Positions 6,692 through 8,244 of a stretch of DNA of 64,000 bases are shown here, in pieces. The stretch comes from Geothrix terrae (GTDB taxonomy: Bacteria > Acidobacteriota > Holophagae > Holophagales > Holophagaceae), in the NCBI RefSeq assembly GCF_022808775.1, contig NZ_JAKZLA010000002.1, forward strand, positions 124,001 through 188,000, given 5' to 3'. A program made the position numbers and the translations under genes. Each line of letters opens with the position of its first letter. Positions within the stretch are counted from its first letter, which is position 1. A model generated the notes under the pieces. It saw nothing but the letters and a program-made list of their open reading frames with translations, was not told the DNA's origin and ran no database searches.

Positions 6692-6755
6692 GGGCGCCCC
6701 CTCTCTCCAAGCCTACGCCGAGCCGGAAGCCCCGAATCAGCTCCAAAAGCAAAAA

Positions 6756-6815
6756 ATGCAACCAATGGGTTGCATCAATCCCCAATCCGTCTAACATGCA
6801 ACCAGGAGGTTACAC
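6756..6815 (+). promoter_or_regulatory. Two candidate ArsR operators in the promoter region of the SRPBCC-arsR operon
   Basis: A perfect palindrome ATGCAACC-AATG-GGTTGCAT occupies 6756-6775. A second copy at 6796-6815 keeps the left arm ATGCAACC exactly and 6 of 8 bases of the right arm (GGTTACAC), with the same 4-base spacer. The copies are exactly 40 bp apart, near four helical turns, and the second overlaps the AGGAGG ribosome site of the downstream gene. A weak -35/-10 pair (TTGCAT, 16 bases, TAACAT) lies between them. Likely autoregulation by the ArsR protein encoded two genes downstream is an inference. Confidence 0.7.
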
Positions 6816-7274
6816 ATGACGGCATCGAGCACCGACTGCATCAGGAAGGAGATCCATCTCCGCGCGCCCCGGACACGGGTCTGGAAGGCGCTGTCGGACG
6901 CCGAGGAGTTCGGAACCTGGTTCGGGATGAAGCTGGAGGGGCGCTTCGTGCCCGGCCAGCCGGTCTTCGGACGGATCACCCATCCCAACTACTCGCACAT
7001 CCACCTGGAGATGAGGATCGAGCGCATGGAACCGGAGCGCCTCTTCTCCTACCGCTGGCACCCCTACCCCATGGACGTGAAACGGGACTACTCGGTCGAA
7101 CCCATGACCCTCGTGGAGTTTCACCTCGAGGCGGCCGAGGGTGGCACCCTGCTCAAGGTGATGGAGTCCGGCTTCGACCAGTTGCCGCCCGATCGGCGCG
7201 ACGAGGCCTTTCGCATGAACGATGCCGGGTGGGCGGGCCAGCTGCCCCGGATCGAACGCCATGTCACGAGCTGA
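6816..7274 (+). CDS. SRPBCC (AHSA1-type) domain protein
   Basis: A 152-residue START/Bet v1-like protein with the AHSA1 pattern: IRKEIHLRAPRTRVWKAL at the N-terminus, an internal beta sheet (IERMEPERLFSYRWHPY) and a C-terminal helix. Such proteins bind hydrophobic ligands and commonly pair with an ArsR repressor. The start is fixed by AGGAGG six bases upstream, inside the second operator. Its last 14 bases overlap the start of the ArsR gene, so the two are translationally coupled. Ligand unknown. Confidence 0.88.
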   Translation: MTASSTDCIRKEIHLRAPRTRVWKALSDAEEFGTWFGMKLEGRFVPGQPVFGRITHPNYSHIHLEMRIERMEPERLFSYRWHPYPMDVKRDYSVEPMTLVEFHLEAAEGGTLLKVMESGFDQLPPDRRDEAFRMNDAGWAGQLPRIERHVTS

Positions 7275-7605
7275 GGCCCTCTCCCCCGCGCGGCTGAAGG
7301 ACGCCGCGCCCCTCTTCGCCGCCCTGGGGGATGCGACGCGCTTGGGCCTGCTTGTCAGCCTCTGCTCCGGCGGACCGCTCACGGTCACGCGCCTCAGCGG
7401 CCAGTTCGACGTCTCCCGGCAGGCCATCACCAAGCATCTCGACGTGCTGGCCGAAGCGGGCCTCGTCAAGAGCGCCCGCCACGGACGAGAGCGCATCTGG
7501 ACCTTTGAGCCCAAGCGCCTCGAGGATGCCCACCAGTATCTGGAGCGCCTGTCCAGGGAGTGGGACGTCGCCCTGGGGCGGCTCAAGGCCTTCGTCGAAA
7601 CCTGA
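7261..7605 (+). CDS. ArsR/SmtB-family winged-helix repressor
   Basis: A 114-residue transcriptional regulator. HTH signature: FAALGDATRLGLLVSL, then FDVSRQAITKHLDVLAEAGL and the wing VKSARHGRERIWTF. ATG 7261 is chosen over 7222 because it gives the normal family length and the typical short overlap with the SRPBCC gene. No Cys-rich metal-binding motif (ELCVCDL type) is present, so it belongs to the non-metal ArsR group that typically controls AHSA1-like partners. It probably binds the palindromes at 6756-6815. Confidence 0.9.
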   Translation: MSRAEALSPARLKDAAPLFAALGDATRLGLLVSLCSGGPLTVTRLSGQFDVSRQAITKHLDVLAEAGLVKSARHGRERIWTFEPKRLEDAHQYLERLSREWDVALGRLKAFVET

Positions 7606-7785: not shown

Positions 7786-8244
7786 ATGGTCGACATCATT
7801 CATCGCGTGGGAATCAAGGCTTCACCGGAAAAGGTGTACTCCGCATTGACGACCCTCGAAGGCCTGGCGCACTGGTGGACTGAAGACACGGAAGGGAATG
7901 CCGCGCTTGGCGGGACCATCAGGTTCTCCTTCCGGTCGCCCGCCGGGGATTTTATCGGGAAGATGGCGATGACGGTCCAGGAGCTCAAGGCTCCCGACGA
8001 GGTGCGATGGCTCTGCACCGAGGGCCCCTCGGATTGGGTGGGAACGTCGATCACCTTCCAGCTTTCCCGGCAGGACAACCAGACCATCGTCCTGTTCGGT
8101 CACCGGAACTGGGCTGAGTCGACCGAGTTCATGGCCCACTGCAGCATGAAGTGGGCGACCTTCCTCCTGAGCCTTCGCGCCTACGTGGAGACCGGCGCCG
8201 GAAAGCCATCCCCCGGCGACCTGAAGATCGATAACTGGAATTGA
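7786..8244 (+). CDS. SRPBCC (AHSA1-type) domain protein, second copy
   Basis: A 152-residue START-like protein: IIHRVGIKASPEKVYSALTT, LAHWWTEDTEG, then strands ending in SMKWATFLLSLRAYVETGAG. This is the polyketide-cyclase/AHSA1 pattern with the HWWT motif typical of one subgroup. GGAGG four bases before ATG 7786 fixes the start; an upstream in-frame GTG (7741) lacks a ribosome site. It follows the ArsR operon after 180 bases, so it may or may not be co-transcribed. It is only distantly similar to the first SRPBCC protein. Ligand unknown. Confidence 0.86.
   Translation: MVDIIHRVGIKASPEKVYSALTTLEGLAHWWTEDTEGNAALGGTIRFSFRSPAGDFIGKMAMTVQELKAPDEVRWLCTEGPSDWVGTSITFQLSRQDNQTIVLFGHRNWAESTEFMAHCSMKWATFLLSLRAYVETGAGKPSPGDLKIDNWN

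Follow-up and report, generated by a model that had tools for sequence, protein, structure and literature searches.

A conserved pair of palindromes before SRPBCC-arsR operons as probable ArsR operators around a predicted promoter

Two palindromes stand in front of a two-gene operon of the window (the whole stretch of DNA analysed, 64 kb), in which a gene for an SRPBCC/AHSA1-like protein is followed by one for an ArsR-family regulator. The question raised by this locus is whether they are operators, which protein would bind them and what fixes the distance between them. Site 1 reads ATGCAACC-AATG-GGTTGCAT, with no mismatch, and site 2 reads ATGCAACC-AGGA-GGTTACAC, with two mismatches; from start to start they are exactly 40 bp apart, so the first-pass annotation had described them correctly as a perfect 20-bp palindrome and a near copy at that distance. 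They were the only matches with up to three mismatches within the window, where 0.27 such matches were expected by chance and two or more appeared in 2 of 100 shuffles. The A-tract directly before site 1 was also seen in most Geothrix/Holophagaceae loci when the upstream regions were compared by eye, and it is a possible upstream promoter element or bend. Most likely, the palindromes are the operators of the operon's own ArsR, bracketing its promoter and serving autorepression; very probably, the layout represents a conserved switch through which the operon controls itself, and its general type is known. The features are collected in Table 1.

Table 1. Features of the operon and of the region before it, in positions of the window
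Feature	Position	Strand	Basis
A-tract directly before site 1	6751..6756	+	sequence
Site 1 (candidate operator O1), perfect 8-4-8 palindrome	6756..6775	+	sequence; kept upstream of homologues
Inferred -35 TTGCAT, right arm of site 1	6770..6775	+	spacing of -10-like hexamers in the loci
Inferred -10 TAACAT, last two bases being the first two of site 2	6792..6797	+	comparative test
Site 2 (candidate operator O2), 8-4-8 palindrome, 2 mismatches	6796..6815	+	sequence; conservation
Shine-Dalgarno sequence AGGAGG inside site 2	6804..6809	+	sequence; gene start at 6816
SRPBCC/AHSA1-like protein, 152 aa, first gene	6816..7274	+	PF08327, E 1e-12; fold model
ArsR-family winged-helix regulator, 114 aa	7261..7605 (with stop)	+	PF12840, PF01022, NF033788; model

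The match of the first gene product to PF08327 reached 48.8 bits (cut-off 22.1), and no NCBIfam match was obtained for this protein. Its model (mean pLDDT 94.2) has a Bet v 1-like fold, with 3q63 as the nearest PDB structure; most of the best structure matches came from structural genomics, and DynU16 and CalU16 were also matched. The AHSA1 domain and the Bet v 1-like fold place the protein in the SRPBCC/AHSA1 group, and it was aligned with 31 of 32 representatives (L046 was left out). The arsR gene shares 14 nt with the SRPBCC gene and encodes a protein of 114 residues, the length given in the first pass, which matched PF12840 (2.7e-9), PF01022 (1.9e-8) and NF033788 (64.9 bits, cut-off 55). 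The model of this protein (mean pLDDT 90.5) had 2oqg as its best PDB match, and 3f6o and SrnR were matched as well; with an HTH_5/HTH_20 domain and an ArsR fold, it belongs to the ArsR/SmtB winged-helix proteins. A second AHSA1-like gene (7786-8244) was observed 180 bp behind arsR, with a ribosome site of its own, and AHSA1-like matches downstream of arsR were also present in L001 and L004.

The metal-site residues of ArsR/SmtB sensors are a CxC in alpha3, or Asp/His/His/Glu in alpha5. An alignment of 33 proteins was made from the ArsR of the window and 32 of the 33 cluster representatives described below (L074 was left out). No Cys was found in its invariant or near-invariant columns, and the commonest Cys column, position 34, held this residue in 15 of the 33 proteins. 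R52, Q53, K57 and H58 of the recognition helix were invariant or nearly so, and the one invariant His of the protein is H58, within that helix. At the place that we take, by eye, to be equivalent to ELCVCDL of the metal sensors, the ArsR of the window reads PLTVTRL. The conserved metal-site residues that mark the metal-sensing members of the family were not found in this alignment. Since the conserved cysteine motifs of a metal site are lacking, a metal is an improbable inducer; as a guess, the inducer may be an organic ligand that is handled or sensed together with the SRPBCC protein.

Conservation of the palindromes was analysed in loci fetched by the ArsR protein alone, the best 80 of at least 178 relatives being used. 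An SRPBCC/AHSA1 match lay upstream of arsR on the same strand in 78 of the 80 loci and ended at arsR in 77 of these (L052 had a gap of about 425 nt). A pair was counted when, within 220 bp upstream of the SRPBCC domain, one site had at most three mismatches and the other at most four, 30-60 bp apart. The pair was present in 58 of the 78 SRPBCC-bearing loci and missing at this cut from 20; in a control with 200 scrambled palindromes, the count averaged 0.005 and never exceeded 1. Conservation before orthologous operons, the check that the first-pass annotation had proposed, thus came out in favour of the palindromes. With a looser cut (3 and 5 mismatches) the pair was found in 62 of the 80 loci, on which the counts of spacing, promoter and Shine-Dalgarno sequence below are based. 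The loci are related, and therefore these counts overstate the number of independent events; for de-duplication, ArsR was clustered at 70% identity, which gave 33 clusters, with 26 representatives among the 62 pair loci. The pair occurred in Acidobacteriota, Pseudomonadota, Myxococcota, Gemmatimonadota, Chloroflexota, Armatimonadota and Verrucomicrobiota (phyla assigned from record titles, where MAG labels may err). Judged by this comparison of sequences, the candidate operator pair is real and conserved before orthologous operons.

Sixteen of the 18 loci outside the 62 were without the pair at the looser cut (L015, L020, L026, L031, L034, L036, L038, L043, L046, L047, L048, L053, L055, L073, L076 and L079), and the remaining two, L050 and L074, had no detected SRPBCC. 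In L047 two sites were 26 bp apart, and the pairs of L048 and L079 had 4 mismatches per site. Further upstream, pairs 49 and 48 bp apart were seen in L026 (265-858) and L038 (663-730); that of L026 precedes an extra SRPBCC gene, which suggests a three-gene operon in this locus.

Additionally, a search by DNA only through 297 genomes of the window's own phylum returned 6 exact pairs, and a reversed-pattern control returned 0. All six adjoin an ArsR of this family, five of them with a detected SRPBCC and one (L090) with a remnant of it; L086, found in this way, and L012 appear to be one and the same locus. Further exact-pattern searches, which miss sites with one mismatch, the window's own pair included, found the pair in one of the 8 genomes accessible through the loci and in none of 299 genomes from the phylum to which L016 belongs.

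The window's own assembly (3.43 Mb, 14 contigs) was scanned in the same terms. Only one other pair with at most three mismatches in each site was present in the genome (C9:183250/183290, again 40 bp apart, with 1 and 3 mismatches), and two lone 3-mismatch matches were located on C1 and C7. The pair on C9 precedes a paralogous operon of SRPBCC and arsR genes, 98.4% identical over 790 nt. Between the two operon copies there was 1 mismatch in each 20-bp site, 7 of 20 bases differed between the sites, and upstream only 20 of 100 bases matched (ungapped). Near-identical sites in such diverged surroundings look constrained. The genome holds 6 ArsR homologues, and the pair was found only before the two of this operon type. 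The recognition helix SRQAITKHL was likewise found only in these two, of five homologues compared (L095 was left out), and before the remaining four of the six homologues no match to the site with up to 3 mismatches was found. An arsR and an SRPBCC gene are also neighbours at a third place (G000:C8:351714-352405), with arsR first and the recognition helix SQPAISKHL; this gene pair is without the operator within 3 mismatches, and a weaker palindrome around AACCATTTGG was noticed by eye before its start. The two copies of this genome (window 6816-7605 and, on C9, L085 1611-2400) were 92-93% identical to L001 and L002 of Geothrix paludis, whose own two copies were 96.7% identical to each other. 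The copy identities in the two genomes suggest recent separate duplication or gene conversion.

The protein that binds the sites could be approached through loci in which the SRPBCC gene is missing or broken. L050 and L074 each had a single site before arsR, with 3 and 2 mismatches respectively; of SRPBCC, L074 had a weak possible tail only (E 0.16) and L050 nothing convincing. In L090 (1501-2037), the exact pair is followed by an internally deleted SRPBCC gene and an intact-looking arsR. Both the start (profile 2-25, E 8e-11) and the tail (125-145, E 0.018) of SRPBCC remain in this locus, which ruled out L090 as an arsR that never had an SRPBCC partner, and hence as a case for a different operator target. 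An assembly error is a possible cause of the internal deletion. As the site persists before arsR in these loci, ArsR is the likely binder of the palindromes. Binding by ArsR is deduced from sequence comparison, and a regulator other than this ArsR could be imagined on the sites; this is nevertheless highly improbable, given the sites kept in L050, L074 and L090, the lack of a site with up to 3 mismatches before the remaining four ArsR homologues of the genome and the fact that operator conservation follows this ArsR subfamily.

A promoter between the sites was sought by taking the best -10-like hexamer in each of the 62 loci, scored with weights from general knowledge. In 54 loci the distance from the TTGCAT of site 1 to this hexamer was 15-19 bp, and in 8 it fell outside that range; shuffled spacers gave 16.9 ± 3.4 loci in the range, with a maximum of 30 in 500 runs. 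Once again, among the de-duplicated loci the hexamer was at 15-19 bp in 21 of 26 (shuffles 6.4 ± 2.2, maximum 14). The correlation with site spacing was -0.03 for the -35/-10 spacer and -0.60 for the distance from the -10 to site 2, and with site spacings rising from 39 to 48 bp the -35/-10 spacer stays the same while the -10 comes to lie farther from site 2. The -10 is therefore tied to site 1 and slides relative to site 2, which indicates that the sites bracket a promoter. A strict consensus sigma-70 scan found no promoter here, and TTGCAT matches 3 of the 6 bases of TTGACA, which makes it a poor -35 by consensus.

Eight loci had a site with at most three mismatches and no pair, and a TTG hexamer occupied the -35 place in 4 of them (0.46 expected), namely L034 (TTGACT-17-TAATAT), L043, L047 and L055, 15-19 bp before a -10 running into the site. 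L047 is doubtful because its sites are 26 bp apart and the hexamer belongs to another layout; without it, the count is 3 of 7. No second palindrome was seen upstream of the single site of L043, L055 and L034, which have the TTG hexamer at the -35 position.

The spacing of the sites varied from 39 to 48 bp over the 62 loci, and therefore a fixed helical face is not conserved. The earlier description of the two sites as lying on the same face of the helix was inexact for the window itself, where 40 bp correspond to 3.81 helical turns (at 10.5 bp per turn). It may still be proposed that the 40-bp spacing is itself a functional constraint, through cooperative binding on one helical face with dimers that touch or loop, since this exact spacing is shared by the 13 Geothrix/Holophagaceae/Acidobacteria loci L001-L013 and by both copies of the window's own genome. 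However, the commonest spacings among the 26 de-duplicated loci were 40, 41, 42 and 45 bp (4, 4, 5 and 6 loci), the concentration of helical phase at 10.5 bp was weak (R = 0.33 over the same loci), and promoter geometry accounts better for the range, so that we consider such a constraint decidedly unlikely. Helical phasing as the main conserved constraint was rejected on the variable spacing and the weak phase. We conclude from the comparison of loci that site 1 would double as the -35 element and that operator spacing appears to follow promoter geometry and not helical phase.

The favoured reading, autorepression by ArsR from two operators around the promoter, would work as follows. The right arm of site 1 would supply the -35 and, after a 16-bp spacer, the -10 would end in the first bases of site 2. 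From the position of the -10, transcription is predicted to start at about 6804-6805, inside site 2 and directly at the Shine-Dalgarno sequence, with a leader of about 12 nt. Site 2 would then cover both the end of the -10 and the predicted start, and ArsR dimers on the two sites would exclude RNA polymerase. Upon release of ArsR, SRPBCC and ArsR would be expressed together.

Masking of the ribosome site of the first gene by the second palindrome had been proposed in the first pass. The overlap itself held, with AGGAGG inside site 2, but the masking did not, as a protein that covers DNA does not stop ribosomes. The middle of site 2 contained GGAG, GAGG or AGGA in 37 of the 62 loci (18 of 26 representatives), and that of site 1 did so in 2 (none of the 26 representatives); with site 1 as an internal control, the embedding of the Shine-Dalgarno sequence is specific to site 2. 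The remaining loci mostly had a ribosome site downstream of site 2, weak in a few. The ribosome site would come to lie within site 2 because the predicted leader is so short.

The palindromes might instead act as RNA, forming hairpins by which the ribosome site is hidden or transcription terminated. Both do fold in a transcript entering from upstream, with AGGA in the second loop, and site 1 with its T-tract resembles a minus-strand terminator. Nevertheless, the predicted message from about 6804 begins inside site 2 with its Shine-Dalgarno sequence unpaired (z 0.54), so that only read-through RNA can hide it. The fold of read-through RNA reached a z of only -1.53, a weak result for RNA hairpin control, and site 2 had no Shine-Dalgarno sequence in 25 of the 62 loci by the test used. 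A minus-strand terminator at site 1 was discarded, with 1 terminator-like site against 0.8 expected by chance, and wrongly placed, upstream of a flavin-reductase-like gene and not behind it. Action as RNA is thus extremely unlikely. An idea that goes beyond autorepression at the DNA, and that we regard as unlikely, is that site 2 is one 20-bp word with three jobs across several phyla, completing the -10, binding the repressor and forming the 5' end of a message that has its Shine-Dalgarno sequence first. RNA derived from upstream would pair the left arm of site 2 with the Shine-Dalgarno sequence and stay untranslated. If the idea were true, stray expression would be blocked twice by one palindrome, on the DNA and again in read-through RNA folded over the ribosome site.

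Among the matches listed in a search of the open-licence literature, no prior mention of the motif before ArsR-SRPBCC genes was found. The ArsR-COG3832 gene pair (PMC2701414) and autorepression of the Rv2034 type (PMC3338718) were already described in the relevant passages of these sources. The present analysis adds the operator sequence, its arrangement as a pair around the predicted promoter, and a Shine-Dalgarno sequence embedded in site 2. The putative operator pair is ordinary in kind and has a neat, compact layout, with bases common to operator, promoter and ribosome site. It offers a concrete candidate operator, and with it a testable regulon, for the widespread ArsR-SRPBCC pair, and a reporter on the 60-bp operator-promoter could serve to screen for the inducer.

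With the metal-sensing repressors SmtB, CzrA and CmtR, the ArsR of the window has the ArsR fold in common, but its alignment shows no conserved cysteine metal site. These repressors act on their own promoters, and their operator letters differ from those found here; CmtR reportedly binds several operators cooperatively, by the title of one study.

A toxin-antitoxin-like pair was also considered, with SRPBCC as the toxin, ArsR as the antitoxin and their ratio set by the operators. We know of no toxic activity for this SRPBCC protein. The genes overlap and are duplicated in the window's own genome, and L090 keeps arsR and the operators with a broken SRPBCC gene, as the loss of a toxin might leave them. 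Furthermore, ArsR-COG3832 is listed as a toxin-antitoxin-like pair of patchy distribution, with several copies in many genomes (Makarova, Wolf and Koonin, 2009; PMC2701414). The operon of the window resembles this module as described in that source, being a stable pair of an ArsR without metal motifs and an Aha1/SRPBCC protein (AHSA1 was equated with COG3832 through the label Aha1 used there), and it fits the module by its adjacent genes, SRPBCC adjoining arsR in 77 of the 80 loci, and by the absent metal motif. However, the same authors, who also reported the metal motifs to be missing, judged a role in resistance to be the most plausible (PMC2701414), and a toxin-antitoxin function of the pair is very unlikely. 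Operators and promoter layout are not mentioned in the relevant passages of their account.

The closest studied case found was Rv2034-Rv2035 of Mycobacterium tuberculosis, in which, according to the relevant parts of the published account, genes for an ArsR and an SRPBCC-type (polyketide_cyc2) protein form one autorepressed operon (PMC3338718). The operator of Rv2034 is a 20-bp 8-4-8 palindrome, CCGTAAGT-N4-ACTTACGG, with a footprint from -30 to +3, taken here as relative to the start codon, and the metals tried did not inhibit binding (PMC3338718). The operon of the window is similar in joining an ArsR without metal motifs to an SRPBCC-type protein, in its autorepression, predicted here, and in having 8-4-8 palindromes near a start codon, as both sites of Table 1 do when set beside the published one. 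The operator sequence is not the same, with half-sites ATGCAACC here and CCGTAAGT there, and where Rv2034-Rv2035, as described in that source, has one palindrome and arsR first, the operon analysed here has two palindromes and the SRPBCC gene first.
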